This document shows, in pieces, positions 14,388 to 32,088 of a stretch of 32,088 nucleotides of DNA. A program made the position numbers and the translations under genes. Source of the stretch: a virus; IMG/VR virus record IMGVR_UViG_3300018417_000040, positions 1 through 32,088 of that record; one strand, written 5' to 3'. The notes beneath the pieces are model-generated. The model did no database searches. It worked only from the letters and a program-made list of their open reading frames with translations, and was not told where the DNA came from. Positions within the stretch are counted from its first letter, which is position 1. Every line of letters starts with the position of its first letter.

Positions 14388-14824
14388 TAGGGAGCATCAT
14401 CAGTGTCTGCTGGATCGACAACGGCTTCGATATCCTCATCGTCCATCACTGGCTGGCCCAAGAGAGGTGCATCTGGGTCCCAAGGTAATGGCTTTTCTTG
14501 AACTACCTTCAGTTCATCTTCAATACCTTTGATGATTCGATTTTGTATATCATCCATATAACCAGGCATTGAATCGATATAGGCAGTAATCCAACCTAAT
14601 ACAGTCTCTTCTGTTAGATCACTAAATGCAGTGAACTCACCAGCTGGGACTTTTTCTGCTGTGAAGGGAGTAGCGCCGGGAAATTTCCCTGTGTTACCAT
14701 TTTCATCAGTGCCAGTTGCTTCCCAGTATGTTTGGATTACAGCATCTGAAAGCGAAGCACCTTCTGTGTTTACTTGATCGCGGACTTTAAGACCCGTGAC
14801 CTTATACGACATTGTTAAGGACAT
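14387..14824 (-). CDS. Small putative virion protein of a marine-phage-type family
   Basis: A 145-residue protein. The core MSYKVTGLKVRDQVNTEG (5-22), YWEATGTDENGNTGKFPG (33-50), and EETVLGWITAYI (72-83) resembles small conserved proteins that I associate with cyanophage-type T4-like genomes, but no function is known to me. The C-terminal 30 residues are acidic and rich in Asp and Pro. The core also matches the following 109-residue gene, including the KPLPW motif (111-115). Two ATG codons compete: the one at 14822-14824 has GGAG 7 bases upstream and is preferred, although an inner ATG four codons later (MSYK) resembles the paralogue's start. Confidence 0.78.
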   Translation of the reverse strand: MSLTMSYKVTGLKVRDQVNTEGASLSDAVIQTYWEATGTDENGNTGKFPGATPFTAEKVPAGEFTAFSDLTEETVLGWITAYIDSMPGYMDDIQNRIIKGIEDELKVVQEKPLPWDPDAPLLGQPVMDDEDIEAVVDPADTDDAP

Positions 14825-14857: not shown

Positions 14858-15344
14858 AATCCTCTATTGCATTTGCAAAATAGGATGTCTGTCTGAGATG
14901 TCTATAAGCCTGGGTAAGATAATTTTCGCCAGATTCGACATCAACAAAAAATTTAATCCAATGGTCCATTCCATCGGTACCAAGGGTTTCAGGTCTCATT
15001 TCATCTACTTGTGCATCTATAGACGGGCCCTTTACTGGACTATCTCCAATGAATCCAATTGGTTCTTTATCTTCATCTTCTCTGGCAGCCTTTGAAGCCC
15101 AGACCTCGATTGCGATTGTACCTACATACCCCTTTTTCCAGTAAACAGGAGGGCCCATATTTTCAATCATTTGAGCTTCATCGGTAGGATCAATATTGGA
15201 TGTATAACCAGTATCTGTAGAAGGATCTACGGGAGGCAAGATATTCTTAATTCTTTTGTCTATGTCGACATGAGACACGACGTAATAAGCCTCCGGTACA
15301 ATCATTCCAGTTGAGCCAATTTCATATGATCTAATAAAAGCCAT
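14856..15344 (-). CDS. Unknown protein translationally coupled to the giant fibre
   Basis: A 162-residue protein I do not recognise. It begins MAFIRSYEIGSTGMIVPEAYYV and has an acidic middle (AREDEDKEP), a proline-rich segment (ILPPVDPSTDTGY), and a C-terminal LTQAYRHLRQTSYFANAIED that looks helical. No signal peptide or membrane segment is visible. Its ATG shares one base with the stop codon of the 3804-residue fibre (TAATG), with a GGAG site 8 bases upstream inside the fibre gene. Such coupling suggests that it works with the fibre, for instance as an assembly chaperone or as an attached virion protein. This is inference from position. Confidence 0.75.
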   Translation of the reverse strand: MAFIRSYEIGSTGMIVPEAYYVVSHVDIDKRIKNILPPVDPSTDTGYTSNIDPTDEAQMIENMGPPVYWKKGYVGTIAIEVWASKAAREDEDKEPIGFIGDSPVKGPSIDAQVDEMRPETLGTDGMDHWIKFFVDVESGENYLTQAYRHLRQTSYFANAIED

Positions 15345-18300
15345 TATATTTTCTCCATTAATCTATTCACCATTTCTTTGAGTTCTTCAATCTGACTCTG
15401 TTGATTATTTATGATATTTTGTTGATCTTTTATAGCCTCAATAAAGAGGCCGGCCATCTTGCCATAATCAACACCATATTCATCACGATCTTCAGCATAA
15501 GTAACAACCTCAGGCAATACCTCCATAACCTCTTGTGCAATTACACCTGATCGTCTGGCTGAAGCCTCTTCTAATGTAATCTTTTGTTTTTCGGCTACCT
15601 TTTCGGGGTTCTTTAATGTATAGTATACACCACGTAATTTTAGAACCTTTTCTAATGCACCATCAATCGTGATGATGTTCTCTTTCTTTCGGCGATCAGA
15701 ATAAGCAACAATATTACTTGTAGCATAAATTGCACCATTTACATACATTGTATAAGACGATGAGGTAGCAGAAGTGCCTATACCCTGGCAAAAATTGTCC
15801 CATCTCCAATACTGAGACCATCCAAATGATTGCCAATAAAGTCCACCAGCACCACCACCACCATTCTGGAACATGATATGAGCTCGGCCGGTGGTTTGAT
15901 GCCAGCTAATACCATACCAACCGCGACCATTACCTCTCACATTCATAGAACCATAAGCGGTGAGTGCATCACGACCAGGTTCTATGTGCCAATCACGTCC
16001 CTCTTGCGAACTCCGGTTAGTGTAATAACCAGAGGTCCTGTTTGTATATAACCATGTATATTTGTACGAATAACCACTTCCGCCATTAATCTGGAATCTT
16101 AAAGCACCACTATTATAGTCATTATAGAATCGCATACCTTCATAGCTTGGGTTCGCAGAGAATTTCATACCGGTATGATATTGGAATACCATATCTGGAT
16201 ATGGGAAACTCCATCCGCCGGATTCTTGGAAACCAAACCCATACGGATACGAAGATCGAGCTATGCCAGAATTTCCACCAGCAATAATACTGTCATATAC
16301 GTATGCGCGATGTTTATAAACCCGGACCCCTATATTCGTATCATGACCATCCCATCGATAGAATGTGCTATTTCTATCATACATAATTTGAGTTTGGAAA
16401 GAATTATTATTATATACAGTTCCACCCACATACCATTGAAGGTACATATTACGGCCACCTTGAGAATCAAGGTGGAGATTACCATTAGTTGTTGCAACGG
16501 ATGCATACGAAGAGGACCAATGACCATTTGTACCTACAGCAAGATAGCGACCCCAAGTTGGGTTAGGTCCGTATAATGTACCACCTCTTTGTCTTCCTGC
16601 CTCATTACTTGTACTAGCAGGGTCATAGTAATAGTTACTATTATTAATATCGGTAAAGCGACTGCCTCTTACCTCTCCAGCAAAGTCAGCAAAATAACTA
16701 CCACCAAGCATCTGGTAATTTAATGCATACGTTCCGCCATTTGAAACTGTATTATTATAGATTCTAAAATAGGTATTCGTGTTATTATTATTAGAATCAC
16801 ACCTAATACTGACATCATTATATGAATTAACAGACATCGCATCTGCCCAGTTTGCGTTTCTATCAGTAGATGAAATTCCTTGATAGTTATAGCTATTCCA
16901 AGCGGATGATCCATTATTAAATGATATGTACCGAATTTTGTGCAGGGAAGATGCAACACTACCAGATGCTGCAGCATAACCGTGACTGGTATCTCTGGCA
17001 AAATACATGGTGTCAGTTCGAATCTGAGGTGTTCGTATTAAACTAGAAACGTCGACCCTCCAGAAAGTCGAACCACTGGTATCGTATATAATAGGAACAT
17101 ATAATGATCGATACATATAAATGTAAGAATCAGCAACGCATCGGATTGTCCAGTTTCCACTGCTTGATAAGAAACCAATACTTGGAGCAGTATCAGCATA
17201 AACATAACCGCGAGCAGTATTACCTGAAGTGGTGAATAAGATCTGTGCAGTAGATGATGTAGAATATAATCTCCAACGAGATGAATTATCAGCATACCAA
17301 TGCATTGCATTTGCAGTATTATATAAACCACGACCATTTACATCATTACGGAACCAACCATCGTTATAGATTTCACCACGGTTATCAATGGTCCGCGTAA
17401 CAGATGTAGAAGCAAAATCTCCATAGTATGCTGGATCATCTGCATCATAATAACGAGATGCATAGGGAGTGGTAAGATTGATTCCACCGTATAGATTTAA
17501 ACGATCAGATGCCCTATCATAGAGCATAAGCCATCTACTTGGATTTAATCTATAGACACCCCAATAACGACCGTAAGACCAAGATGATGAGCCATAATTA
17601 TTGCTCATTATCGTATACGAATTACGATGTCCGTATCCATTCCACGCACCCCGGCCGGTAGTAGAATATGTGGCCACGTTTCCATATGGGTTGCCTTCTG
17701 AGTGAGGCGACCTTAATCCCACACCATAGCTTTGAAAATAAAAACCGGTGCCACCTTGAGCTCGGAACCAGTTATTAGCCAGAACATAGTTAAGCTGAGA
17801 TACACTACCGGGATTTACATAATAACCAGGATGGTCTCTATCATTAAAGCGGTTAGCACTTATTTCACCATAGATCTCAGTGGTACTATTATTGGTTCGA
17901 AGAGCCCATCCACCGCCTTGATTCAAGAAGCCAATATTATTGCCGTTATCTGCATATACATAACCACGAATTACGCCGGCATATTCATCACGGAAACGAA
18001 TCCAGTTTGCACTCGATCCACCAGCAACGTTCCAACCATCATCATTATCAGAATACCAATGCTGCCCTGTACCCTGGTTATATAAACCCTGGCCGGAATC
18101 ATCATTGCGGAACCAATCACGAGCATAAATGTCAGTAGCACGAAGGCCTGTATTAAGGTTAGAGAATGATGCTGGATCTACATAATAACCAGTATTATTT
18201 CTATCGCGGAATCTTTGCGCGTCATGATATCTGTTTGTTAGAACATCACCATTACCACGAATGATTAGATTCCAAGTTCCCCCGAATCCACCATCACGGA

Positions 18301-21300
18301 AGATGAAGTCCTCTCCACCTGATGTAGCAAATTCAAAGTGGCTATCATTAGTTTCAGTTGCACGAATATATCCACGTAAGGCGCCTGCGCTTGTATAGAA
18401 ATAGAGTGGTGCACCACCAATCATATCTTGTCTACTGTAGACCTGTGGTCGAGAGAATCTTGATAACCCGTTGGCATCGAGTCGATAAAATGTATCATCA
18501 AGATCGTAAAAGATAGAAGCTCTGACATCACCCCCAGACCGAGTACTCAAATTACCAACATAATTTCTGGTATTAGAAGGATTCTGGCCCGCCGATGCGC
18601 CTTGGTTGGTTCTTATTTCCTGTCCTTGTAGAATATCATTTGAACTATTGGGTGGCGGATTACTTGTAGTATATCCAGTGCCTCCGTCGATTCTAGTATA
18701 TGAAGGACCTTCTAATGTCAGACCACTTCCAGCAGCATAAACATATCTCCATCTGAAGAATGAATCCCATGTATTGCTATATAAACGTATCCAAACTGCT
18801 CTGTTATTGTCTATTCTGACCTGTGGTGTAACACTATTTTCTGGCCCACCCATTGAATGGTGATCAACAGATACAGAACTATTATTCCAAGAGCTTGCAA
18901 CAATTCGGCCTACTGCATTACCAGAATAATTCACATCATCTTTTGCATAGTACTCGAGAATTACCTCATTACTCGAACCACCCATTGTGAATAATTTTAT
19001 CCAATACCACCTTGTGCCATTCGTTGGATCGTAGACATAGGTACCTACTGTTCTCCAAAATAATTCTTGAGCATTATTAATATTTGAGCCATCAATGGTG
19101 ACATTTACAAGATTGGAGCCAGATGCCGGATCTACATAGTAGTTGGTATCGTCATAATCATATAAATTCCGGGCAATTAATTGAGTACCATAGAAGGTGG
19201 CCGTTCTTGTATTCTGGGCAATGCGCATTGCATTGAGGCCCCATTGATTGTATCTGAAGCCATGGTATTCGCGAATTCCGAAATCATTGTTGTCAAAAGA
19301 GCCTATACCCCAGTTATTATTAGCGTTTCCGGCACTGAAGGTAATATTTGCCCGATCTCCACCTGTGGTATTTTCCACACGGAATTCTGCAACCTGACCC
19401 CATGAATGGTTCGCAAATTCGTTTGCAAAGTAAGCAGCGCGACTGTTGCCCGGGGCAGAACCTTCTCGACGAATTGATAATAATGCGGCACTGGTATCTG
19501 TTACACTAAGTCTTCTGAAGAGTGATTCATCGGCAGGAGCAGCATAGAAATTATTGTTATTGATATCGGTAAATCTATCTGCATAGAAATTGCCTGGAGC
19601 ACTAATACGCATGTTGCCCCAACCAATATCACGGCCGAGAATCAAATCATCGGTACCATCATAGAATAACGCAGAATTAACTTCATCGCCAGAATCATGA
19701 AGTGTCATCTCCCAAGTTTCGGAGAAATTGGCATGAATACCAGATCGAATATCACTGGCCCAAGAACCAGCTGTGAAATCGTAGTTTCTATCGGTGCGAC
19801 CTATATTTAAAGCACCCGGCTGCAGATTTCCATTGGCATAACTCGAATTAGAAATCTCACCATAAACTCTTATCGAATGATCAGCATTCGGGTCGATGAA
19901 ATAGGCCGTATCATCCTTGGCTCTTATTGTGTTGAGATCAACAACATTCATTCGTGATGTAGAAGCAAAATCTCCATAGTAATCATTATCACCACGGTCG
20001 TAGTAGATATTTGCATTAATTTGATCTGCAGTGATATCATCTGCTAGGATATCATCAACCAATAAATTAGATTCGACGTTTCGGCGCTTGAGCATAATGC
20101 CACCGAATTGTCGGAGGGCACCACCAGAGTTATAGTTGAGCAGAATTCGAATACGTACGTAATGAACACCACCACCGTCTGAACCATTATATGGCGTATG
20201 GGATGTTGGGAGTGTCGTATGATTACGATACGTTGTCCAAGACGTGTTCGTATAATTATTTGCTGATACTACGAAATATGTTGTACCTGTATTTCCGGCA
20301 ATTGGATTCTTATCTTTATCGAATCTTTCGACACCATAGTAAAGTAGACCACCAGAGCCCGAAATATATCGAACAGAAATCTCACCATAGATATCCTCGC
20401 CTGGCACAACCGGAATGTAATCAGAGTAAATTCTTCGATATGCAGAAGTTTGTATGGTCTTTCCTGCAAACGGTGCATCTGCTACCTCGATATATTCACT
20501 TTGTGCAACGGTAAGAATTTCATTGCCTTGAATCGGACTATCTAATTCTGCTTCAGAGTATGGAGTGAAATCAAATAATACAAGATCAGCACCACCAGAG
20601 CCATAGGCAGGATTGAGCGAAATATTACCACCAGGCCCAGTGATATTGAAATTATCGGCGTAGACTTCTCCACCAAAGAATGCGTTACCGTCGTCGAGAT
20701 CAATAGAAGCTCTTAGATTTCCATTACCAATAAAGACAATTTCATTTGGATTTGTTGTACTAAAATATGAAAGATATGGATTATCGTTTCCAGCCCAGAA
20801 AATACCCCAGTCGGTAGCTGTATTCCAAATCCAATGTGAATAATCTTGAGCAACAAGTAGTCTATTATCATCACCATCACCAGATGTAGCGAAACCTTGT
20901 CGATTGATTCGACTGCCAATATTCAAGCCCGTCTGAGTATTGCTCTGGCCCAGATTTAGGTAATATGAAGTCGTAGATGTATCATAATAAACTGGAGCGC
21001 GCATCTGATTATTTGCACGGAAATATCCGTTATCAGCTCGACCTTGTACCGTACCATTATAATAAATTTCTGTGTAGCTATTTCGCGTAGCTCTAATCGC
21101 CCATTCATTATTAACGTCGTTGTATATACCGGCCTGATTGCTCGAACTCCTTGCCATGAACACCCATTCACCATTAATAGAGTAGCCGCGCCAATCACCT
21201 TTACCATCACCGTTAATTTGTATCGAACCATAATCACCGGTTGGATAAGAAATATTAATGGTTGTGTCGTCATTATATACAGGATAAATTATGGTGGTTC

Positions 21301-24300
21301 TGAGTTCGTTGAGCCGAGATTCATTAGCTGGATTAACGTAGAAGTTTGTATTATCACTGTCTGTGAACTGTGGAGCTCTGGCCTCAACAGGAGCCAAGAA
21401 ATACCCATCATTGACCTCAGCCTGAATGACGTTATTCCATCTTAATTCAACACCTGCATCGGCGACTGCGCCGTGTCTCATTAATATCATCCAATGATTA
21501 TTAACATCATTGTAGATACCTGAAGTCGTGCCGTTATTGTGCATGAAGACGGATCGGCCGCCAATTGAAAAGCCTTCGTAGGAGCCTACAGCACCACCAT
21601 TAACCTCGAATGAGCCAAAGTTACCGGTAGGTCTTCGTAACCTGACCTCACCAGTATCCAATAAAATTTCATTTAATTTTGAATCTCCAGCCGGATCAAC
21701 ATACCACGCCGTATCATCATTGTCGTACATGATGGGGGTTCGGAATTCCGGCGTTGCACGAACATAGGAATTATTGACCAGAAGCCTTGCGGAACCTCCG
21801 GTTACTACTCGCCATGAATCCTCGGCATTAAATTGAATATAGGTATTCGTGTCACCATTGTGCTCGATATAGTCATCAAGACCAATCTGGTTCATTATCG
21901 ATTTAGAGGCAAAGTCACCATAATAGTTATTATTGTCTGCGTCATAATATCTACTGAAATATGCGTTCGCCCCTGTGACATCACCTGAGAAATTAGCTGT
22001 CTGAGCGTATACCGTTCCCCAACGATAGGTAGATAAACCTAAAGAACCAGAATTGGTAACTCTTGGAATAACATTACCACCGGCAGCATTTGCGTTCGTG
22101 CCAAATACGTAATGAGTAGTAGGCTCTGACGATTCAAACGCCATTGCCATATTAGCACCTGCCGTATATGAGTTATCGGCATGCCAAGCTTTAATAGAAA
22201 CTTGTTGTAATCCACTTAACCCTGGTGTTTCAGCAGAGCTTTGGTCAGTAAATGTGATACCAACACCACCACCATTACTATCTTTTTGTAATTCTATGCC
22301 TGAACCGTAAACTTCAAGCTTACGTCTTGCTCTTACTCGGTTTGCATCTATAAGTGCTCTTTGAACACCATTTGTCTGGAATGTAATTACGTCTGCCGAA
22401 GAGAAACCAAAATAAGTATTGAGATCACCGCGGTGACGAATATAATCATCAATCCAGATCTGGTTTAATTCAGAATCACCGGCTGGATTGACGTAGTAAT
22501 TATTATCATTATAATCAATGAATTGAGTAAAGTATGCTGCACCACCCATGCCAGAAAGGTCTTTGCCATTTCTTATCCTAAGAGTAGTACCCTCGGTCAT
22601 GTAGATACCACCACCCCAACCGAAGGCCAATTCTTCATCCTTCAAGAATGTTGCAGTACCAGCACCAAATACAATTGCGTCATTGGCTCCATTCAGCTGA
22701 AGACTTCCACCTTCGAAATGGAATTTGTTAGCACTTACAGAGCCGACCAGAGGGGTATTATCATTCTGGGTATAAACGGGAATATAATTACCAAAGAAAA
22801 TCTGGCCATCATGAGCAAAGTTCGCAATAGGAATAAACGTATCACCAGTCCAAATCTGGAAGCCATTCTCTGCTGTTGGATTTGAAGGCGAACCATTCAA
22901 TAAGAAGAATAAATTATCTCCTGCTGATTCGATTGCTATAGAACCAATTGAGGAACCATCTTGCAAGAAGTCAAGATATTTACCGCCGAATGCCCATGGG
23001 TTTGTCTCTGTGTTATTCAGTCGATTTAGAGACACCATTGCCTGACCACCAGCAGTACCACTGACGGCTATATTTGAGTTACCGGTTCCACCATCCCATG
23101 CATGTGTATTAAGGGCAATACCACCATTGCCTGAGTTATCCGACCATCGGGTACCATTCGTGATAATACCTTGTCGAATTGAACCACCAGCGAACATCGA
23201 GGTCGTTGTATCTGTGAGATCAATATAATAATTATTGTCATCGTAATCGATAAATCGAGGAGCTCGGAAATCAACAGAGGATTCAATATAGGTATTGGTA
23301 ACATAGAATCGTCGGACACTATTTGTGACGATTTCAAAATCATCTGTGCCAGGGAACTTGATCCAGTTGGTAGTATCACTGGCAGATCGAATCTTATCAA
23401 CAAGATTAATTCGATTCATCCGTGATGATGATTGAGGATCAACGAAGAATGATGTATCTCCTAAATCATAATAGAAATCGAAATATGCAGCCTCTGTGCC
23501 ACCAAAGCCTCTAATATTTCCATCAAAATATACAGTATTTTCAAAATAAAATGCTGGCCTATCAGTTCTGAAATGGGCGTAGTCGGGATCTTCGGCACCA
23601 ATATTTACTGTGCCGTTGGTCGTGCCAAAGACATGACTATTTGCACTATTGGGATTCCAATAATAATCTTGATTGGCCTGATCGTAGTAGATAGGAGCCC
23701 AGATCTCATTCTTGGCTTCAAGATATGAGGTTCTAACACCAGATGCAACTAATCCAGAAGAGTTGGTAGTATCAGCACCAATTTTATCGCCATAGAATTG
23801 CCACCATGCTCCCATTGCTTGACCAGCTACAGTATATGCATTATTATTATCATCAACTGTAAGATAGTTATCATCACCGGACGCATCATTTAAAAATACA
23901 AGTCTTGGTGTGACAACCTTGGTCGTAGCAAATATCGTGGTCGTAGAGATATCTGGGTCGGTGCCATCTGTAAGATTGGCTGTTGATCCGATATGTAATT
24001 TATTCAGAACTGAGGTAGACGCAAAATCACCATAATAGTTATTATCGTCTGAATCATAATAACGAGGCGCATACATGGCCCCATCAGCTGTAACATCACC
24101 AGAGAAATTACCATTGACAGCATTAATATCCCCGGTCAGAGTAATATTATTACCTAAGAAATCAAGATCGGTTGATAATACGGTGGTGTTTGCAGAGATT
24201 GCATTCGCGCCACCTACGACGACCTGATATTCATTTGTATTAGGAAAATGAATGTATGTATCAGCATCACCATCGTGAATGATTTCACCTACCAAGGCGA

Positions 24301-26758
24301 TATCATTGACACGAGATATCCCAGCAAAATCCCCATAGTAGCTATTATCATTCTCATCATAGAATATCGAGGCTTCTATAGGTACGTTTGATGTGACGAT
24401 CGTATTTGTAACTAATACCCTATCGACGCCATCTGTTCTTAATACAATCTGGGCAGATCCATTGAAACCAAGATAGGTGTTAAGGTCTCCACGGTGCCGG
24501 ATATAGTCATCGATGTCGACTGTATTTAATTGAGAATCACCAGCCGGATCGGTATAATACGCCGTATTGTCCAGGTCATAAAATATTGGTGATCGAATAT
24601 TAAATATCGCATCAACGTTATTATCATTAACAAGGAATCTCGGAGTACCGCCGGTGATAACTCGGAATTGATTAGTGCCGTCGAAATCGATATTCGTGCC
24701 ACTATTATTCCAAGCCTGAATTCGAAGATTCAAATTGATAGCTGACATATTAGAGACAGAAGCAAAGTCTCCATAATAGTTTAAATCATTTGAATCGTAG
24801 TAAATAGGAGCCCTGACTTGATGGAAGATCTGGGCATAGGTATCATTAATTCGAAAATTTTCTGTTCCGTTTGTAAAGATACTAAACTGATTCAGCCCAG
24901 TAAAATCTAGGTAAGTGCTTGAATTAGAATCAAATTGAATAATACCCAATAGAGATATATTATTCATTCGTGATGTAGAGGCAAAATCTCCGTAGAATGT
25001 AGAGTTATCTAAATCACGATATTGAGGTGCATACATTCTATTGACAGCATAGATGTCAGTATTAGAAGTAATGTCACCCCAAGAATTAATCTGGCCCTTG
25101 ACAAGCAAATCACCATCTGCAGTAATATCATTACCAGCAGTTATGTCATTATTTGCAATTAAATTAAATCCTACCAGATCACCAGAGAATGTGCCGTTAA
25201 CACCTGAGATATCTCCTGTTAGGTCGATATCAACACCAGTAATTGTACCATCGAAATCTGCAGAATTGAACTGAGAGGTTCCAGCCGGATCTACGAGATA
25301 TGTTGAGTTATCTGAATCAAGTAATCTTGGAGCATATAAGTCAACAGAAATATCTACCCTAGATGGTCGTATACGAACCTTCTCTGCGCCACCAGCATAA
25401 AATGTAATATCGTCTGGATTCTGAAATCCAAAATAGGTATTGACATCGCCATTATGTATGATATAATCATCAAGACCAATGGTATTCATTTGAGAATCAC
25501 CAGCTGGATCGACAATATAATTGTTATTATTTGAATCGATTATTCTGGGTACATACATATCGACGGCGACATCGACTCTTGTATCTGCAACTCCAATCCT
25601 CTCTGCCCCACCAGTCTGCAGACTGATATCATTATCGGTGAAGCGAATCAGTGTATCCGTATCCCCATTATGGAATAAATCGGAGTCAATTCCTACGTTA
25701 CCGACGACAGAAGTAGCTGCAGGGTCTACATAATAAGAAGCATTATCTGCATCAATAAATCTTTGACCAATGACATCAGTACCAGCAGTGATAGTGGTAT
25801 TGGCGGTAATCGAAGATCCGGCCGAGATGGTCGTTACAGATGTGAATGAATTTGCACTCAAAGCATAATTGAATACGGCCGAACCATCAGCATTCAGGTA
25901 TAGATTGGTATTGGTATCGTCACCCAATTCCATTCGAGTTGCGGATTCGTTATAAGTGATGATATAGGTATTGCCATCATCACCCTTGAATTGAAATGTT
26001 GGATTGAGAGAATCAATCGTGGTATTACTATCTAATGTCCACTCATCATTCGTCTCATTCCATAAGAAATAGGTATTTGCACTAGTACCACGGTTGATTT
26101 CTATACCGGCGTCTTGTGTTGGAACACCAACGTGATTGGCATTGAGTGTGATGATATTGTCAGATAAGAGAATGGTCTCTGTATCGACGTATGTGGTATT
26201 ACCAGAGACGGTTAAATCGCCTTGGATGGTAAGATTACCCACCATCGTATCATCTTCATCCGATCGTAGGAACTGTGTGGAGTCTAATCCATCGATTGTG
26301 TCCGCGTCAAGACCATTGCCAGATCCTTCATCTGCCGTGGTAAGAATCCTAAATCCTTCGATGGTGGTATTCGATAGGCCTGTGAAATCATTTCCTGTAG
26401 AAGTGATTGACAAACGAGAACTTCCATTATATAATAGATCTAATCCCTGTGTAATTCCGAATCGTATTACATTATTTCCACTACCAATATCATAGATACC
26501 GGCAGAAGGGTTGGTGATATCGAGAGAGTTTGAATCTCCAATGAACTGAGCAAGATTGGCAGGATGGGAATTTGATGTATTTCGTACTAAAAGCGAATAT
26601 GTGTTCGCAATCGAGTTGGTGATTTCTGCTTGACCAGAGAATAAACTAGGACCGGATACTTGAAGCGAATCGGTACCATTATCGGTGAGGGTACCAAAAA
26701 GGCCCCTACCAGCTGTAGCGATTCCGTTCTTCGCAAGAAAGAATTTATTGTTTGCCAT
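15344..26758 (-). CDS. Giant tail-fibre/adhesin protein with S74 chaperone domain
   Basis: A single uninterrupted 3804-residue frame. Residues 1-250 carry a marine-phage fibre head region (GNGLDADTIDGLDSTQFL, then TMVGNLTIQGDLTVSGNTTY and ILLSDNIITLNANHVG). From about residue 330 to 3385 there are some 25 copies of a module of about 70-130 residues centred on Y-D-x-x-N-x-x-Y-Y-x-D-P-A-x-x-S (or Y-Y-G-D-F-A-S-x-S), often paired with HNGD-x-N-T-Y-x-x-F and G-G-x-x-R. Two unrelated inserts interrupt it (about 2055-2225 and 2564-2690). The last part is rich in Tyr, Trp, Gly and Ser. Residues 3687-3804 are an S74 domain (SDRRKKENI, then SGVIAQEVMEVLPEVV). An 11-base spacer follows GGGGAG before the chosen ATG. 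The likely role is a trimeric receptor-binding fibre. Confidence 0.93.
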   Translation of the reverse strand: MANNKFFLAKNGIATAGRGLFGTLTDNGTDSLQVSGPSLFSGQAEITNSIANTYSLLVRNTSNSHPANLAQFIGDSNSLDITNPSAGIYDIGSGNNVIRFGITQGLDLLYNGSSRLSITSTGNDFTGLSNTTIEGFRILTTADEGSGNGLDADTIDGLDSTQFLRSDEDDTMVGNLTIQGDLTVSGNTTYVDTETILLSDNIITLNANHVGVPTQDAGIEINRGTSANTYFLWNETNDEWTLDSNTTIDSLNPTFQFKGDDGNTYIITYNESATRMELGDDTNTNLYLNADGSAVFNYALSANSFTSVTTISAGSSITANTTITAGTDVIGQRFIDADNASYYVDPAATSVVGNVGIDSDLFHNGDTDTLIRFTDNDISLQTGGAERIGVADTRVDVAVDMYVPRIIDSNNNNYIVDPAGDSQMNTIGLDDYIIHNGDVNTYFGFQNPDDITFYAGGAEKVRIRPSRVDISVDLYAPRLLDSDNSTYLVDPAGTSQFNSADFDGTITGVDIDLTGDISGVNGTFSGDLVGFNLIANNDITAGNDITADGDLLVKGQINSWGDITSNTDIYAVNRMYAPQYRDLDNSTFYGDFASTSRMNNISLLGIIQFDSNSSTYLDFTGLNQFSIFTNGTENFRINDTYAQIFHQVRAPIYYDSNDLNYYGDFASVSNMSAINLNLRIQAWNNSGTNIDFDGTNQFRVITGGTPRFLVNDNNVDAIFNIRSPIFYDLDNTAYYTDPAGDSQLNTVDIDDYIRHRGDLNTYLGFNGSAQIVLRTDGVDRVLVTNTIVTSNVPIEASIFYDENDNSYYGDFAGISRVNDIALVGEIIHDGDADTYIHFPNTNEYQVVVGGANAISANTTVLSTDLDFLGNNITLTGDINAVNGNFSGDVTADGAMYAPRYYDSDDNNYYGDFASTSVLNKLHIGSTANLTDGTDPDISTTTIFATTKVVTPRLVFLNDASGDDNYLTVDDNNNAYTVAGQAMGAWWQFYGDKIGADTTNSSGLVASGVRTSYLEAKNEIWAPIYYDQANQDYYWNPNSANSHVFGTTNGTVNIGAEDPDYAHFRTDRPAFYFENTVYFDGNIRGFGGTEAAYFDFYYDLGDTSFFVDPQSSSRMNRINLVDKIRSASDTTNWIKFPGTDDFEIVTNSVRRFYVTNTYIESSVDFRAPRFIDYDDNNYYIDLTDTTTSMFAGGSIRQGIITNGTRWSDNSGNGGIALNTHAWDGGTGNSNIAVSGTAGGQAMVSLNRLNNTETNPWAFGGKYLDFLQDGSSIGSIAIESAGDNLFFLLNGSPSNPTAENGFQIWTGDTFIPIANFAHDGQIFFGNYIPVYTQNDNTPLVGSVSANKFHFEGGSLQLNGANDAIVFGAGTATFLKDEELAFGWGGGIYMTEGTTLRIRNGKDLSGMGGAAYFTQFIDYNDNNYYVNPAGDSELNQIWIDDYIRHRGDLNTYFGFSSADVITFQTNGVQRALIDANRVRARRKLEVYGSGIELQKDSNGGGVGITFTDQSSAETPGLSGLQQVSIKAWHADNSYTAGANMAMAFESSEPTTHYVFGTNANAAGGNVIPRVTNSGSLGLSTYRWGTVYAQTANFSGDVTGANAYFSRYYDADNNNYYGDFASKSIMNQIGLDDYIEHNGDTNTYIQFNAEDSWRVVTGGSARLLVNNSYVRATPEFRTPIMYDNDDTAWYVDPAGDSKLNEILLDTGEVRLRRPTGNFGSFEVNGGAVGSYEGFSIGGRSVFMHNNGTTSGIYNDVNNHWMILMRHGAVADAGVELRWNNVIQAEVNDGYFLAPVEARAPQFTDSDNTNFYVNPANESRLNELRTTIIYPVYNDDTTINISYPTGDYGSIQINGDGKGDWRGYSINGEWVFMARSSSNQAGIYNDVNNEWAIRATRNSYTEIYYNGTVQGRADNGYFRANNQMRAPVYYDTSTTSYYLNLGQSNTQTGLNIGSRINRQGFATSGDGDDNRLLVAQDYSHWIWNTATDWGIFWAGNDNPYLSYFSTTNPNEIVFIGNGNLRASIDLDDGNAFFGGEVYADNFNITGPGGNISLNPAYGSGGADLVLFDFTPYSEAELDSPIQGNEILTVAQSEYIEVADAPFAGKTIQTSAYRRIYSDYIPVVPGEDIYGEISVRYISGSGGLLYYGVERFDKDKNPIAGNTGTTYFVVSANNYTNTSWTTYRNHTTLPTSHTPYNGSDGGGVHYVRIRILLNYNSGGALRQFGGIMLKRRNVESNLLVDDILADDITADQINANIYYDRGDNDYYGDFASTSRMNVVDLNTIRAKDDTAYFIDPNADHSIRVYGEISNSSYANGNLQPGALNIGRTDRNYDFTAGSWASDIRSGIHANFSETWEMTLHDSGDEVNSALFYDGTDDLILGRDIGWGNMRISAPGNFYADRFTDINNNNFYAAPADESLFRRLSVTDTSAALLSIRREGSAPGNSRAAYFANEFANHSWGQVAEFRVENTTGGDRANITFSAGNANNNWGIGSFDNNDFGIREYHGFRYNQWGLNAMRIAQNTRTATFYGTQLIARNLYDYDDTNYYVDPASGSNLVNVTIDGSNINNAQELFWRTVGTYVYDPTNGTRWYWIKLFTMGGSSNEVILEYYAKDDVNYSGNAVGRIVASSWNNSSVSVDHHSMGGPENSVTPQVRIDNNRAVWIRLYSNTWDSFFRWRYVYAAGSGLTLEGPSYTRIDGGTGYTTSNPPPNSSNDILQGQEIRTNQGASAGQNPSNTRNYVGNLSTRSGGDVRASIFYDLDDTFYRLDANGLSRFSRPQVYSRQDMIGGAPLYFYTSAGALRGYIRATETNDSHFEFATSGGEDFIFRDGGFGGTWNLIIRGNGDVLTNRYHDAQRFRDRNNTGYYVDPASFSNLNTGLRATDIYARDWFRNDDSGQGLYNQGTGQHWYSDNDDGWNVAGGSSANWIRFRDEYAGVIRGYVYADNGNNIGFLNQGGGWALRTNNSTTEIYGEISANRFNDRDHPGYYVNPGSVSQLNYVLANNWFRAQGGTGFYFQSYGVGLRSPHSEGNPYGNVATYSTTGRGAWNGYGHRNSYTIMSNNYGSSSWSYGRYWGVYRLNPSRWLMLYDRASDRLNLYGGINLTTPYASRYYDADDPAYYGDFASTSVTRTIDNRGEIYNDGWFRNDVNGRGLYNTANAMHWYADNSSRWRLYSTSSTAQILFTTSGNTARGYVYADTAPSIGFLSSSGNWTIRCVADSYIYMYRSLYVPIIYDTSGSTFWRVDVSSLIRTPQIRTDTMYFARDTSHGYAAASGSVASSLHKIRYISFNNGSSAWNSYNYQGISSTDRNANWADAMSVNSYNDVSIRCDSNNNNTNTYFRIYNNTVSNGGTYALNYQMLGGSYFADFAGEVRGSRFTDINNSNYYYDPASTSNEAGRQRGGTLYGPNPTWGRYLAVGTNGHWSSSYASVATTNGNLHLDSQGGRNMYLQWYVGGTVYNNNSFQTQIMYDRNSTFYRWDGHDTNIGVRVYKHRAYVYDSIIAGGNSGIARSSYPYGFGFQESGGWSFPYPDMVFQYHTGMKFSANPSYEGMRFYNDYNSGALRFQINGGSGYSYKYTWLYTNRTSGYYTNRSSQEGRDWHIEPGRDALTAYGSMNVRGNGRGWYGISWHQTTGRAHIMFQNGGGGAGGLYWQSFGWSQYWRWDNFCQGIGTSATSSSYTMYVNGAIYATSNIVAYSDRRKKENIITIDGALEKVLKLRGVYYTLKNPEKVAEKQKITLEEASARRSGVIAQEVMEVLPEVVTYAEDRDEYGVDYGKMAGLFIEAIKDQQNIINNQQSQIEELKEMVNRLMEKI
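15347..15700 (-). other. S74 intramolecular chaperone (auto-processing) domain of the giant fibre
   Basis: Residues 3687-3804 match the C-terminal chaperone domain known from endosialidase tailspikes and T5 fibre, which trimerises the fibre and then cuts itself off. The catalytic Ser (3687, in SDRRKK) and the Lys five residues later (3692) are both present, so cleavage is expected just before Ser3687. The end is a Gln/Glu-rich coiled coil (IINNQQSQIEELKEMVNRL). Confidence 0.9.
15406..15413 (-). promoter_or_regulatory. Possible late promoter (CATAAATA) inside the end of the fibre gene
   Basis: The minus strand reads CATAAATA within codons for the terminal coiled coil, 62 bases before the ATG of the 162-residue gene. 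The distance resembles that of the gene 18 promoter, but the motif may simply reflect coding of Ile-Asn-Asn. Confidence 0.25.
18690..19070 (-). other. Non-repetitive insert domain 2 in the giant fibre
   Basis: Residues of about 2564-2690 break the repeat series with a Trp/Tyr-rich beta-type sequence (FWRTVGTYVYDPTNGTRWYW, then NRAVWIRLYSNTWDSFFRWR). No family is recognised. It may be a surface-exposed binding domain. Confidence 0.5.
20085..20600 (-). other. Non-repetitive insert domain 1 in the giant fibre (lectin/CBM-like)
   Basis: Residues of about 2055-2225 lack the YY.DP module. They read as a beta-sandwich-like unit: IYSDYIPVVPGEDIYGEISV, then YYGVERFDKDKNPIAGNTGT and HYVRIRILLNYNSGG. 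This layout resembles carbohydrate-binding jelly-roll modules seen in phage fibres. The fold is inferred, not demonstrated. Confidence 0.55.
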
Positions 26759-26792
26759 TCGGTTCCATTCTCCCCAGTCAGGCGTTAAATTG

Positions 26793-29700
26793 TTATTCTA
26801 TAAGAGTGATCGATGCTCTATATGTCGTAGACGTAGCTCCTGCCGATGATACCCTCAATAAGATAAATCCGCCTGTATATAACACATCGAATGTACCTAA
26901 TTCAGAATTCGTAAACACAGAACCATACTGTGTGGCGACTGCCGTAGATCCATCATGTGTGATTAACATTTTAACCACATGTCTATTTATTCCTGTTGTA
27001 ATTACACAGGAAACCTCTGCCCCACCATAATCATTCCCGTTCCATATATACAGATTTGCCGGTAGTACGTTCGTCGTGGTTATTTCTGCACTATCGAATC
27101 GAGTGAATTGTTGTGCGATATATCCACTGCTAATGAAATTGTTCGCTGTTACATCTTCAGAAACAACGATAGAGGTATTGACCGTGAGATCACCTTCGAT
27201 GACAAGATCACCCGTAATCGTATCACCAGTAACATTAACGAATAATGCATTGGCCTGTGCTTCAGTCAGACCAGCTTCAATGACACCGGTAGATACACCA
27301 ACAACGTGACCGAATGTATCGAATTCAAGGCTAGTGATTGCTGTATTATTAGCAACCGAAGTATTAGCCACACTAGATGTATCTGCGTGATCGAATGTAA
27401 TTGAGACATTTGCAAATTGGTTGGCGTTGAATGTACCACCACCATCGAGAGCATCACCAGCCACGAGGGTAATGTCAGCGGTACCCACATTAGTATTAGC
27501 TTGTGTGGCTGCCTGATTGATAATATCTTGGGCTTCAAGTCCATCAAGAAGATCGGCATCGAGTAATGACCCAGCACCATCATTTGTGACATCAAAGAAA
27601 CCTAATGCCCTGATGTCGGCAGCAGTCTGGTCTGCGGTAGCTCCTGGTTCGATACCATCTAATTTGGCACCATCAACTGCAATATCTCGGCCATCAACAA
27701 GACCACCAAGGTCAACATCATTTGTGATGAAGACACCATTAGCGGTTGTTCTTAGCCTTTCAGATCCATCATAATATATTTGAACATCTGCCGATTGAGT
27801 GGCAACAACCATATTATTGCCAGTACCATCTGTGATTCTCACTTTATTGGAATTGATAAAGAGATCACCTGTACCGGCGTCATTAATTACACTATCGTTG
27901 CCATTGTGGAATAATTGCAGATCAGAACCATCACCAAAGTTTAATTTCGCGTTGTCAGCAAATCCTACGTCAGCTCCAAATTGATCGATCAACGTTGTAT
28001 AGACTGATCCATCTTGTGTTTGGGTGACCAGAGTATTGTTTGCAGAAGACCAAGTGATATCATCGATACCAGCTACGGGTGATGTATTCGCGACTGTGAT
28101 TCTGCCATCTACGTCAATGGTAAGAACAGGAACCTGGGATGAAGATCCATATGTATTGGCAACGACACCAGTGTCTTCTAATTCAGTGGCAATTGAAATC
28201 GTGCCAGTATTAGAAGTGGTCGATCCAGTGACCTTTCCTGTTAATTCGACAGTGATGTCATCTTCTAATTGATCGAGACGAGCACCATCTGCAGCAATAT
28301 CACGGCCATCGACCAAACCATCGACGATGATATCATCATAAACATGGATACCAGTACTGGTCGTATCCATCCTTGCGACGTTATCGTGGTATAATGTAAC
28401 CTTTCCATTTTCAGTAGCAGTAAGATAAGGTTCATTATTAAAGTAACTTCTGATTTGTAAATCACTGCCCTTGAGGACAAGATTACCCGTACCCGTATCT
28501 TCGATGATAGAGGTCGTTCCAGTGTGGAAAATTGCCAAATCACCATCAGCACCAAAAGTTAATTTTGCACTATCAGCGAATCCTACATCGGCACCGAATG
28601 AATCAATAAGGACAGAGAATACAGATCCATCCTGCGTCTGGGTCACTAGCGTATTGTTGGCAGAATACCATTCTATATCTGATACACCAGCAACCGGAGC
28701 AGTATTTGCCAGAGTGATTCGACCATCCTCATCTACGGTAAGGACAGGAACCTGAGAAGATGAACCGTATGTGTTAGCAGTAACACCGGTATTGGCCAAT
28801 TCTGTGATGACGGTCATAATACCAGTGTTGGTAAATGCCTGGCCAGTTACTTTACCGGTGAGTGTGAGATCTAAACTTGCTGGAGGTACGTTGACGAAAT
28901 TATTATAATCGAGATAATACGCGCCCTCTTGTCCATCAAGAAGGTCTGAATCTAGCTGAGATCCAGCACCATCTACCGTCAAAATTAAATCAAGTAATTC
29001 TTGAGGATCAGCAGTAAATGTGATGAGAGTATTTGCATTCGTATCTGGGTCATGCTGTTTTATGAAGAGTTTGCCTTCATACGTATTAACAACAACCTCA
29101 CCTAATTCGAGATCTTCAAGTACTGGTGTCCACCCAGGGGTCGTATTGGAGACCAGATTTCTCTCTAATTGTATTATCGTGTCCTGACCATCGACCTTGA
29201 TGATCGATACACCACCACCGATTCCTACACTAAAATTATTAGAGTGGAAATATGCAACACCCTTATTTGATGTATTTGCCTGTTCGGCTGCTATCGTGAT
29301 GACATTATTTGATACGGTAGTATCGATACCGTCACCGGCAGTAAATGTGAGGGTCTCACCGAGGGCTACATTATCGGCCGTACCAAATTCACCGGCGATG
29401 GTGATGAATGGATTTGCTATCTTTGCGTTTGTGATTCCTGAATCTTTAACACGTAGGGTGTCTGAAACAATCTCTATGGTCGAATCATCAACGTTAACAT
29501 CGAATGTGAAGGTATTGGCATCATATGTTAAACCTTCACCACCTACAAGACTAGAGATACCACCTGATATCTGATCATCAACATAGAATTTAGTAGCAGC
29601 ATCCTGGGCTAGAGTAGGATCTTGCAGATTTCTGATCTGCTTATTACTGACGAATATATGACTGAAGCCAGGGTCTAATGTAATACCTAATGATCTACTG

Positions 29701-32088
29701 ATTGACGTAGAGGTAATCTGCATATCATTTGCGATGGTCAGATCGGTATCTAATTCCAGTTGATCTGCTGTGATAAGAGTATCTACATCGATAGAAGCGA
29801 TAACAGAGTTACCATTTGGGTTTATGAAATATGCTGTGTTATCGGCATCATAAACAATTGGAGTCGTGGTAGAGAATGGAGCATGAAAACTAGAAGTAGC
29901 CTTTTCTACATACATCATGTACTGGAAGAAATTATTAACGAATCCTAATTTACCACCAGCACCATAAAGATATACTGTCGAGGCATTATTATCAGTAAAC
30001 TGTACACCCGAATAGGTCAGACCATATCCAAATATGGCCTCATTGAATCGAGAGATACTTGCAAAATCACCATAATAATTTGGATCTTGTGCATCTACAA
30101 ATCGACCAGCAGAAAAATTACCTTGTACCGTTACGTTGTTAAGATTAGATGAGCCGTTCGGGTCCAGATAAAAAGAATTATTATTTGCATCGATAAATTG
30201 TGTACCAGTCACCGAACCCGACGCGTTGATCGTATTCATTACCGATACCGATGCAGGATCTACATAATATGTAATATTATCCTTATCATAATATCGAGAT
30301 GCAAAGATATCTCCCGTGATATCTATGTCGCCTCCAGTGATTGTGATACCACTATTGGCCGTTATGCTTCCTGATGTTGAAATAGACCCGTTTGAGAATA
30401 ATACACCATCGATATCCAAATCACCACGTAATTCTAAATCCTGTAGGACGGTGAGTGAATCTGGGTCGACAAAGAAACTAGAGTTATTGGCATCGATGAT
30501 ACTTGGAACCGTAAGAGGTCCAGTCATCGAATCCCCTTCGATGTTTACAAAATTGACATTGAGGTCTTCTGATACTACAGATTGAACGTGGCCAAACTCG
30601 TCAAATGTGATATCATTAATAACGACACCAGGGCCATTGAGCACATCTGCAATGTTAGATGTATTCGCGTGCCGAATATCTGCAAAGGCTGCAACGCCTG
30701 GAGTTAGATCAACCTCAATACCACTATTTGCCGTAACACCAGCAAGGTAATCAACAGTGATCGCAGTATTAATTACTGTATTAGAATTACGAACTACCGT
30801 ATTGGCACCAACCACATCACCCTGAAGATCAACGACAAAATTCCTGACATAGATCTCCATTTTACCATCTTCGGGTGGATTTCCAGTCGGTGAATCGTTG
30901 TAGATGACCTCGACGCCTTCCTTGGTAGTGAACTCCCACATCTGGCCGGCAATATCTTGTACCGTCTCAGTCAAATCCACAACTGTATTTGCAGAGAACG
31001 CAATAGGAATATCTAGGGCTGTGGTAATTCGTCCCTGAGCGTCAACAGTAAGCTGAGGAATGAATCCCTCACGTCCATAGACATCTGGATCAACAGCGGT
31101 ATTTGCAAGGCCCCAACTAAATTCGTTATTGGCAAATTGTGCTTGCATTCCCTCGTTGACAGACAATTTGGGAATGTCATTAATAATATCCAAATTGAAT
31201 GTATTTGCTCCATCATTGATTTGAATGAAGCGAGAGAAAGAACCATTCTCTAGGTAATCGTAAGTAACGACATCAGTATTCGAGGTGGGATTAGCCACTC
31301 CTGTTAATTTGATATCATTAAAAGTAATCTGTGGAGTATCAGACGATATGGTATCATTCAAGATGAATAGGTCGTCAACGCGAAGAGATCCATTCATGGT
31401 CACGAGACCAGAACTTCCGTTGATCGTTACCTGATTTAAATTATCACCGAATAGGAAATTACCTTGTTCAGTGATCTCTAATCTTTGAACTCCTCGCGTG
31501 AAGAATTGAAGCTGATCATTATCCGCGTTTGGCCCTGATTCTGCTATGATCCTTGTGTCTTGGTCGACATCAATTACTGCACCAGCAAGACCTGCCCACT
31601 GGGCTCCATCATATCCTTCGAATCGGGTATCGTTCGTATTGTATCGAATCATACCAGCTTCTGGTACGGTAGGCCTCTGAGATGAATTACCTACTGGGAC
31701 AATGATAGCCCCTGAGATATCAAAATTAACAATTTCCGTATTATTATCGATAACGTTCGTATAGACACGAGCCCAATTCTTTGTCGACGAACCTATATTG
31801 TAGGTATCATCATCATTTGGTACGAGATTACTTGTGAAGTCAGCGATTACCTCGATCGTATCAACGTCTTGATCACCAATTCGAATATTACCACCTAGTG
31901 TAATATCTCCGTCTACACCAAGATTACCTGCGATCTGGACGTCGCCTGTAGCGTAATCAAGAGTAAACTTATCTGAATTATCACCGTATTCAATGTTACC
32001 ATCGGCATTGATAATTAATCTTTGCACACCCTGGGTAAAGAATTGTAGTTGATCGTTATCGGCCCCTGGCGCAGATTCTGCTTGTATC
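26793..32088 (-). CDS. Giant repeat-built fibre/adhesin, 3' part (cut by right edge)
   Basis: The frame is open through the right edge, so about 1765 residues of C-terminal sequence are visible. Translation upstream of the GTG at 32025-32027 continues as AESAPGADNDQLQFFTQG, which repeats a segment seen about 169 residues later (AESGPNADNDQLQFFTRG), so the GTG is not a start. Other parts are a GMIRYNTNDTRFEGYDGAQW module, GSSSQVPVLTVD-type modules in a 206-residue tandem duplication, five YY.DP modules shared with the 3804-residue fibre, and VDGAKLDGIEPGATADQTAA. It ends in a C-terminal beta-rich domain (VLPANLYIWNGNDYGGAEVS, closing with TTYRASITLIE) with no S74 domain. It stands 34 bases before the second fibre. 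The likely role is a tail-fibre or baseplate-linked adhesin. Confidence 0.9.
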   Translation of the reverse strand, partial: IQAESAPGADNDQLQFFTQGVQRLIINADGNIEYGDNSDKFTLDYATGDVQIAGNLGVDGDITLGGNIRIGDQDVDTIEVIADFTSNLVPNDDDTYNIGSSTKNWARVYTNVIDNNTEIVNFDISGAIIVPVGNSSQRPTVPEAGMIRYNTNDTRFEGYDGAQWAGLAGAVIDVDQDTRIIAESGPNADNDQLQFFTRGVQRLEITEQGNFLFGDNLNQVTINGSSGLVTMNGSLRVDDLFILNDTISSDTPQITFNDIKLTGVANPTSNTDVVTYDYLENGSFSRFIQINDGANTFNLDIINDIPKLSVNEGMQAQFANNEFSWGLANTAVDPDVYGREGFIPQLTVDAQGRITTALDIPIAFSANTVVDLTETVQDIAGQMWEFTTKEGVEVIYNDSPTGNPPEDGKMEIYVRNFVVDLQGDVVGANTVVRNSNTVINTAITVDYLAGVTANSGIEVDLTPGVAAFADIRHANTSNIADVLNGPGVVINDITFDEFGHVQSVVSEDLNVNFVNIEGDSMTGPLTVPSIIDANNSSFFVDPDSLTVLQDLELRGDLDIDGVLFSNGSISTSGSITANSGITITGGDIDITGDIFASRYYDKDNITYYVDPASVSVMNTINASGSVTGTQFIDANNNSFYLDPNGSSNLNNVTVQGNFSAGRFVDAQDPNYYGDFASISRFNEAIFGYGLTYSGVQFTDNNASTVYLYGAGGKLGFVNNFFQYMMYVEKATSSFHAPFSTTTPIVYDADNTAYFINPNGNSVIASIDVDTLITADQLELDTDLTIANDMQITSTSISRSLGITLDPGFSHIFVSNKQIRNLQDPTLAQDAATKFYVDDQISGGISSLVGGEGLTYDANTFTFDVNVDDSTIEIVSDTLRVKDSGITNAKIANPFITIAGEFGTADNVALGETLTFTAGDGIDTTVSNNVITIAAEQANTSNKGVAYFHSNNFSVGIGGGVSIIKVDGQDTIIQLERNLVSNTTPGWTPVLEDLELGEVVVNTYEGKLFIKQHDPDTNANTLITFTADPQELLDLILTVDGAGSQLDSDLLDGQEGAYYLDYNNFVNVPPASLDLTLTGKVTGQAFTNTGIMTVITELANTGVTANTYGSSSQVPVLTVDEDGRITLANTAPVAGVSDIEWYSANNTLVTQTQDGSVFSVLIDSFGADVGFADSAKLTFGADGDLAIFHTGTTSIIEDTGTGNLVLKGSDLQIRSYFNNEPYLTATENGKVTLYHDNVARMDTTSTGIHVYDDIIVDGLVDGRDIAADGARLDQLEDDITVELTGKVTGSTTSNTGTISIATELEDTGVVANTYGSSSQVPVLTIDVDGRITVANTSPVAGIDDITWSSANNTLVTQTQDGSVYTTLIDQFGADVGFADNAKLNFGDGSDLQLFHNGNDSVINDAGTGDLFINSNKVRITDGTGNNMVVATQSADVQIYYDGSERLRTTANGVFITNDVDLGGLVDGRDIAVDGAKLDGIEPGATADQTAADIRALGFFDVTNDGAGSLLDADLLDGLEAQDIINQAATQANTNVGTADITLVAGDALDGGGTFNANQFANVSITFDHADTSSVANTSVANNTAITSLEFDTFGHVVGVSTGVIEAGLTEAQANALFVNVTGDTITGDLVIEGDLTVNTSIVVSEDVTANNFISSGYIAQQFTRFDSAEITTTNVLPANLYIWNGNDYGGAEVSCVITTGINRHVVKMLITHDGSTAVATQYGSVFTNSELGTFDVLYTGGFILLRVSSAGATSTTYRASITLIE
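27630..28244 (-). repeat. Tandem protein repeat, second copy (about 205 residues)
   Basis: This copy begins LTGKVTGSTTSNTG and includes NTYGSSSQVPVLTIDVDGRI, SANNTLVTQTQDGS, FGADVGFADNAKL and GLVDGRDIAVDGAKLD. It aligns end to end with the copy at 28245-28862 and is one residue shorter. Confidence 0.88.
28245..28862 (-). repeat. Tandem protein repeat, first copy (206 residues)
   Basis: This copy begins LTGKVTGQAFTNTG and includes NTYGSSSQVPVLTVDEDGRI, SANNTLVTQTQDGS, FGADVGFADSAKL and GLVDGRDIAADGARLD. Its end joins the second copy without a spacer. Confidence 0.88.
29800..30510 (-). repeat. Five YY.DP-type modules in the partial fibre protein
   Basis: Copies are SIIDANNSSFFVDPDS, RYYDKDNITYYVDPAS, QFIDANNNSFYLDPNG, RFVDAQDPNYYGDFAS and IVYDADNTAYFINPNG. 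They are the same module as in the 3804-residue protein, including both the VDP and GDFA flavours, which shows that the two giant genes have exchanged or inherited a common building block. Confidence 0.85.

Follow-up and report, generated by a model that had tools for sequence, protein, structure and literature searches.

Exchange of fibre parts is thought to be a main route by which phages alter their binding, and the familiar cases concern the fibre tip. A 1998 study, going by its title, reportedly treats conserved motifs between variable segments as crossover points. In the system of that study, as represented by the reference in PMC3797505, it is the distal adhesin that is exchanged, whereas fibres of the type analysed here appear to exchange beads along most of their length. 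T4 gp34, a trimeric fibre of a T4-like phage, is a triple beta-helix with interspersed beta-prism domains (PMC5537660). For T4-like marine phages, a host recognition cluster of pelagimyophages and cyanomyophages has been described in which a hypervariable fibre region adjoins the neck genes; it is given as a gene cluster, and within-gene bead exchange at joints was not found in the passages covered (PMC7029224). The mosaic adhesive trimers of Bdellovibrio are long chimeric trimeric fibres with varied domains, many with an S74 end; however, they are cellular, measure ~1000 aa, and have a capping-loop consensus (V-G-G/N-x-x-x-P-x-x-x-L) different from the 26-residue module described below (PMC10769870).

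The window (the whole stretch of viral DNA analysed, 32,088 nucleotides) carries a giant fibre gene and a large upstream fibre gene (Table 1). Gene order in the structural region is T4-like, and PHROG models identified portal, tube, sheath, terminase, sheath stabiliser, and head-tail adaptor genes. The terminase is nearest to those of Sinorhizobium phages phiM12 and phiN3 (59%). The source is a virus of aquatic bacteria; its gene content suggests a T4-like myovirus, with the 3804-aa protein as putative host-recognition fibre. Residues ~171-246, within the presumed attachment end, form a stretch shared with cyanophage fibres. Where T4 uses gp34-gp37, the window fibre is one 3804-aa chain with ~25 connectors of one kind. 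The contrast with T4 drawn in the first-pass annotation holds in gene number, but less so in architecture, because gp34 is also a triple beta-helix with beta-prism domains (PMC5537660).

Table 1. Features of the two fibre genes in the window. Residues are those of the giant fibre; for joints, the first residue is given.
Feature	Residues	Coordinates	Strand	Remarks
Giant fibre gene	3804 aa	15344..26758	-	ORF; N-terminal region, 25 joints between beads, C-terminal S74 chaperone + coiled coil
Upstream large fibre gene		26793..32087	-	cut by window edge; 5 joints, then ~206-aa repeats of another kind
N-terminal region	1-329	25772..26758	-	presumed attachment end
Peptidase_S74 intramolecular chaperone	3687-3752	15503..15700	-	PF13884
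Tandem joint + A bead array	576-823	24290..25033	-	period 73 aa; self-match, structure prediction
Type B bead	1699-1793	21380..21664	-	predicted core pLDDT ~72-78
Type B bead	1820-1919	21002..21301	-	predicted core pLDDT ~75-86
Bead	2772-2845	18224..18445	-	74% identical to L160 bead; neighbours 20% and 32%
Bead	2872-2966	17861..18145	-	71% identical to L175 bead; neighbours 19%
Joint	330	25694..25771	-	module HMM
Joint	402	25478..25555	-	module HMM
Joint	475	25259..25336	-	module HMM
Joint, GDFA flavour	576	24956..25033	-	module HMM
Joint, GDFA flavour	649	24737..24814	-	module HMM
Joint	722	24518..24595	-	RSPIFYDLDNTAYYTDPAGDSQLNTV; top-scoring copy with final profile
Joint, GDFA flavour	795	24299..24376	-	module HMM
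Joint, GDFA flavour	896	23996..24073	-	module HMM
Joint, degenerate	1020	23624..23701	-	module HMM
Joint	1092	23408..23485	-	module HMM
Joint, degenerate	1165	23189..23266	-	module HMM
Joint	1409	22457..22534	-	module HMM
Joint, GDFA flavour	1600	21884..21961	-	module HMM
Joint	1673	21665..21742	-	module HMM
Joint	1794	21302..21379	-	module HMM
Joint, degenerate	1920	20924..21001	-	module HMM
Joint, GDFA flavour	2248	19940..20017	-	module HMM
Joint	2392	19508..19585	-	module HMM
Joint	2528	19100..19177	-	module HMM
Joint	2746	18446..18523	-	module HMM
Joint	2846	18146..18223	-	module HMM
Joint	2967	17783..17860	-	module HMM
Joint, GDFA flavour	3099	17387..17464	-	module HMM
Joint	3364	16592..16669	-	module HMM
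Joint, degenerate	3455	16319..16396	-	module HMM
Upstream fibre joint 1		30435..30512	-	module HMM
Upstream fibre joint 2		30228..30305	-	module HMM
Upstream fibre joint 3		30132..30209	-	module HMM
Upstream fibre joint 4, GDFA flavour		30036..30113	-	module HMM
Upstream fibre joint 5		29790..29867	-	module HMM

The module has a 26-residue consensus, [RY]APiFYDxNNTxYYvDPAstSrlNtI. Its HMM, with copies counted at ≥14 bits, found 25 in the giant fibre and 5 in the upstream neighbour, in agreement with the ~25 and five proposed from the first reading. The copies scored ~14-48 bits, whereas no score above 6.3 bits was obtained from 100 shuffled proteins. Two flavours, xDPA and GDFA, are present; their supposed alternation was not borne out, since the order PPPFFPFFPPPPFPPFPPPPPFP contains 11 runs vs 10.75 expected (runs test). 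Self-matching of the 3804-aa protein revealed a dominant lag of 73 residues, and module spacing ranged from 26 to >300 residues; the description "one repeat" therefore fits the joint, not the whole fibre. At the DNA level the copies, all in direct rather than inverted orientation, are only ~60-80% identical. Recent tandem expansion was ruled out because of this divergence.

In the upstream fibre, the N-terminus is open at the window edge and 1764 residues are visible (2333 aa in full in L002). Its strongest internal repeat is ~206 residues long and unrelated to the module. The view that both genes were built from one module is correct in that both contain copies, but the upstream neighbour consists mostly of other sequence, with modules taking up ~240 of its 1764 visible residues. 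Weak Pfam matches of this protein to PAS, YabP, and Bactofilin fell below the cut-off and were disregarded.

Sequences between joints (termed beads) were compared using 883 joint-to-joint intervals from 71 non-redundant relatives. Preferred interval lengths were 26, 73, 100, 122, 125, and 156 aa. The modules are separated by unrelated content, and 13 bead families with at least three members recur within and across proteins. Structure prediction (monomer) yielded small beta-meanders for the A beads (pLDDT ~90); a beta fold is confidently predicted for both A and B beads, and the connector is of low confidence. The module had been taken for a unit of the shaft; it is instead a joint between beads, and the bead is the confidently predicted folded unit. 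The closest solved folds to the A array were the Mu tail fibre and T4 gp34, both weak (PDB matches all E > 0.02; gp34 at E 0.13 or above), and a PDB search with a bead model combining A and B yielded no usable match. No sequence match to gp34 or other solved T4 fibres was obtained in PDB. Matches to viral models numbered 47 at E ≤ 0.001, and the named ones were mostly tail-fibre and S74 proteins.

The C-terminal Peptidase_S74 domain (PF13884) matched with 54 bits vs the curated cut-off of 22. The S74 catalytic motif is SDxxxK (PMC10769870), and SDRRKK at the domain start fits it. The domain presumably promotes trimerisation and afterwards is cleaved off. A trimeric state, which we infer for the giant fibre, fits both this S74 end and the weak likeness to T4 gp34 and Mu fibres. 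Function as a fibre is suggested by sequence comparison.

Pairs of related fibres revealed replacement of whole beads. L004 and L005 are 80% identical over aligned residues; however, three of their beads are only 17-24% identical while the flanking beads are far more similar, and the switches lie at or adjoining connectors. In 12 clean bead swaps, 19 of 24 switch points fell inside the 26-residue joint. Across 91 fibre pairs, 271 of 615 switch points were in connectors, compared with 99 ± 9 expected (500 rotations, highest 125); individual fibres appear in more than one pair, so that neither the pairs nor the 12 swaps taken from them are independent. Some of the switches, and some indels the size of one unit, lie outside connectors. 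Given that every relative conserves the connectors, a switch separating unlike beads is likely to be assigned a position close to one, and the precise crossover inside it is uncertain. One L004 bead is 90% identical to a bead of L198 although both its neighbours are just 18-21% identical. Window beads 2772-2845 and 2872-2966 follow this pattern at 71-74% identity. Single joint + bead units are also present or absent between relatives. The idea that the fibre grows and shrinks by recombination is upheld by these units, but the clearest change is bead replacement with switches in joints. In the window fibre, the best relatives of individual beads are spread over many different phages. No close variant of this fibre was found, so exchange is seen in the relatives and, for the window fibre, read from weaker mosaicism. 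These findings indicate that viruses exchange whole beads with one another and that the putative crossovers lie mostly inside connectors.

Taken together, the giant protein is probably a very long, most likely trimeric host-recognition fibre of a T4-like virus, in which exchangeable beta-beads are joined by conserved connectors, with an S74 end and homologous exchange at the connectors. The 3804-aa chain would be a string of exchangeable beta-rich beads with a 26-residue connector between each two. Co-infecting phages would recombine in frame at connectors, by which single beads would be swapped, added, or lost. We propose the connector as the homology stretch for recombination because it is closely similar between unlike beads; homologous recombination would then be the process behind bead exchange. 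The beads may be exposed to host surfaces and under selection for variable binding.

A scheme in which each module is a small trimeric shaft unit, and unequal recombination of tandem copies is the main source of length change, would account for the 73-aa tandem stretches and for those differences between relatives that are 72-73 residues long. We consider it unlikely: the modules are spaced by 26 to several hundred residues of unrelated content, their DNA copies are old, the clearest changes are replacements rather than changes in copy number, and the confidently predicted fold is the bead. Receptor-binding fibre parts are expected to evolve fast, and the mosaic might reflect unequal rates, with exposed beads diverging rapidly while connectors are constrained; the conservation of connectors in all relatives agrees with this. 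However, the beads that replace one another come from different families, and other fibres contain close relatives of them. The expected counter-case, in which a bead closely matches one in a distant fibre and its neighbours are unrelated, was already seen in L004/L198, and rate variation alone is insufficient for a 90% match with such dissimilar beads on either side. Unequal rates are therefore a distinctly unlikely explanation.

A dedicated variation system is suggested by the module's presence in PilV adhesins that carry a shufflon-type annotation; PilV in studied cases varies through DNA inversion, according to the abstract of PMC5430464. The PilV proteins that bear the module have a type IV pilin N-terminus, Shufflon_N (PF04917), and a single copy; in Pseudomonas megaplasmid PilV this copy lies at the stalk end, ahead of the C-terminal tip. 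In contrast, the giant fibre matched neither PF04917 nor a pilin N-terminus, and its modules are direct. Eight relatives, some of them contigs of 156-221 kb, were searched; in these possibly incomplete contigs neither a reverse transcriptase nor an integrase or resolvase (serine or tyrosine recombinase) was found, although the positive controls were detected. RecA-like genes were present in three relatives. A shufflon-type invertase or diversity-generating retroelement was thus rejected as the driver of variation, and such a system is highly improbable here. Under the preferred reading, exchange at connectors, a single gene seems arranged for exchange over most of its span, having ~25 joints and a shared bead pool; crossover sites and bead inventories can therefore be counted directly in metagenomes.

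No curated model for the module exceeded the cut-off in Pfam, NCBIfam, or PDB, and PHROG matches of the giant fibre were mainly to the A bead and S74 end. In the literature searched, which takes in a minority of subscription journals, no description of it appeared. The module also occurs in cellular surface proteins and in the pilus-tip adhesin PilV; phages and plasmids were searched with a 52-aa composite of module sequences, an insensitive query that could have missed copies in isolated phages. It may, tentatively, be a joint that is widespread in trimeric surface fibres but uncatalogued, used in phages, conjugative pilus tips, and bacterial and archaeal surface proteins, which mechanically couples unlike beta-beads and serves as a homology block for trading surface-binding beads among viruses, perhaps cells too. 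Because the joint is absent from the curated family libraries searched, a joint model would help annotate many "hypothetical" proteins of aquatic phages, Patescibacteria, and conjugative plasmids. In the metagenome-assembled Synechococcus phage DSL-LC03 (OR003938, PMC10611076), a 3161-aa protein annotated as hypothetical has five modules, fewer than the giant fibre, and is likewise located behind another large gene. The giant fibre had no NCBIfam match, including to the N-terminal MAT domain (NF053851); a sub-threshold match to NF053851 was seen only in the cellular relative L252.

The window is one complete IMG/VR record of 32,088 bases, and it carries two adjacent fibre genes. Searched with a profile made from the most distinct copies of the 26-residue module, the giant protein gave 25 modules and its upstream neighbour 5 at a threshold of at least 14 bits, in agreement with the counts in the first-pass annotation (about 25 and five). 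None of 100 shuffled proteins scored above 6.3 bits. The consensus from 232 modules was [RY]APiFYDxNNTxYYvDPAstSrlNtI. The two module flavours (VDPAG and GDFAS), which were said to alternate, did not do so. Both fibres carry the module, as that annotation held, but in the neighbour it is only a small part of the protein. Overall, the annotation was mostly correct in observation and correct in part in interpretation.

Feature positions in the window and in L002, a longer contig overlapping it
Feature	Sequence	Position	Strand	Remark
Giant fibre ORF	Window	15344-26758	minus	3804 aa
Upstream fibre ORF	Window	26793-32087	minus	Extends past window edge
Two adjoining genes, each matching DUF7936	Window	14058-14824		Shortly downstream of giant fibre
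Sugar-/methyl-transfer-like genes	Window	6491-7240, 11399-14020		Amid structural genes
Large fibre-like gene	L002	2-3712		1236+ aa, PHROG tail fibre match
Large fibre-like gene	L002	4190-10342		2050 aa, PHROG tail fibre match

In tandem stretches, a 73-aa period consisted of the module and a 47-residue bead (pattern DDYIxHxGDxNTYxGF...TGGxxR); elsewhere, module spacing ranged from 26 to >300 residues. Among 883 intervals from 71 non-redundant proteins, each with at least three modules, the favoured lengths were 26 (58 intervals), 73 (52), 122 (33), 100 (25), 125 (22) and 156 aa (21). Clustering of the inter-module stretches gave 13 families with at least three members, recurring inside and between proteins; the biggest cluster includes some long composite stretches as well. 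The favoured lengths and recurring families indicate that the module is the joint and the beads are the variable part.

Comparison of relatives pointed to exchange of beads. The fibres of L004 and L005 were 80% identical across aligned residues, and L004 beads 2143-2263, 2513-2592 and 2776-2867 were only 17-24% identical to their L005 counterparts; codon-level alignments placed these switches in or beside the flanking joints. In 15 pairs picked from an earlier scan, 12 clean swaps (neighbours at least 75% identical) were found, and 19 of 24 switch points lay within the joint, against ~1/4 expected by chance because the search covers ~100 residues per side. Across 91 pairs, 271 of 615 switch points fell in joints (99 ± 9 expected when joint positions were rotated); this count and that of the 12 swaps overstate the independent evidence, since fibres recur among the pairs and joints are conserved. 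Bead provenance is the stronger argument. One L004 bead was 90% identical to a bead of L198, another fibre, whereas both of its neighbours were 18-21% identical. Two window-fibre beads likewise had close matches (71% and 74%) in fibres with dissimilar neighbours, and the best relatives of the window's beads were scattered over many different phages. Growth and shrinkage by recombination had been proposed earlier; single-unit differences of 72-73 residues between some relatives indicate that gain and loss also happen, but outright bead replacement was the clearest change.

A search of eight relatives (including contigs of 156-221 kb) for tyrosine and serine recombinases and reverse transcriptases gave no hit, and control genomes were matched. 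A RecA-like gene was present in three of the eight. Together with the observed swaps, these results favour ordinary homologous recombination, by which co-infecting phages would swap beads with the joints supplying homology. The likely benefit would be a varying set of binding surfaces down the long fibre. The giant fibre is a modular phage fibre of a known kind whose layout for bead exchange is unusually explicit.

The predicted structure of an array of A-type beads (alignment of 29 sequences) had a mean pLDDT of 76.8, with each bead at ~90 and joints at ~50-78. A mixed stretch of A and B beads was modelled poorly (mean 52.8), with two B-bead cores at ~72-86. In the PDB, the A array came closest to the Mu tail fibre (E 0.027) and T4 gp34 (E >=0.13), matches too weak to show more than the right kind of protein. 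A search of predicted viral structures gave 47 matching models at E <= 0.001, the named ones mainly tail-fibre or S74 proteins. T4 gp34 is a triple beta-helix interrupted by beta-prism domains made of five-stranded sheets (PMC5537660); on the simplest reading of the presumed trimer, the giant fibre would follow the same plan, much lengthened. A Peptidase_S74 domain, scoring far over the Pfam cut-off, terminates the giant protein and is followed in the translation by an apparent coiled coil.

The 26 residues gave nothing over threshold in Pfam, NCBIfam or PDB, and PHROG matches lay mainly in the A bead or at the S74 end. With a composite query, DSL-LC03 was the only phage record to yield clear module copies. 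The same query matched plasmid PilV tip adhesins, which share the module with the phage fibre and carry one copy, between stalk and tip; in Pseudomonas megaplasmid adhesins (L036, L037) it sits at the stalk end. A pattern scan of genomes found 38 loci (Patescibacteria, Bacteroidota, Myxococcota, archaeal MAGs and others). Many of the encoded proteins have a signal-like N-terminus, and S74 or PilV-type domains occur in some. At these loci the module period was frequently 26, 31 or 37 residues; four such cellular proteins with signal-like N-termini (L268, L259, L254, L271) are built of tandem modules at these spacings. The ~5-6-residue steps might represent optional beta-helix rungs.

The window and L002 overlapped over 11,143 bases with 81 mismatches. 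From L002, the full upstream protein is 2333 aa, of which the window carries approximately residue 572 onward. It has a separate repeat of ~206 residues, unrelated to the module, with copies at residues 1139 (EWYSANNTLVTQTQDGSVF) and 1345 (TWSSANNTLVTQTQDGSVY) of its visible part. The extra fibre-like genes of L002 sit upstream of both fibres; thus, a large share of the phage genome is spent on fibres.

Downstream gene order agreed with a T4-like structural region, and the terminase was nearest to those of Sinorhizobium phages phiM12 and phiN3 (59%). The giant fibre gene occupies a position corresponding to the host recognition cluster described for marine T4-like phages (PMC7029224). Three module-bearing contigs (L244, L247, L248) were binned with a Rhodobacteraceae MAG, a faint hint at the host. 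A single 162-aa ORF without a match separates the giant fibre from the DUF7936 pair, which possibly has a role in fibre assembly. The transfer-like set comprises an FkbM methyltransferase, a mannose-6-phosphate isomerase-like cupin, a TPR protein and a weak GH130-like match.
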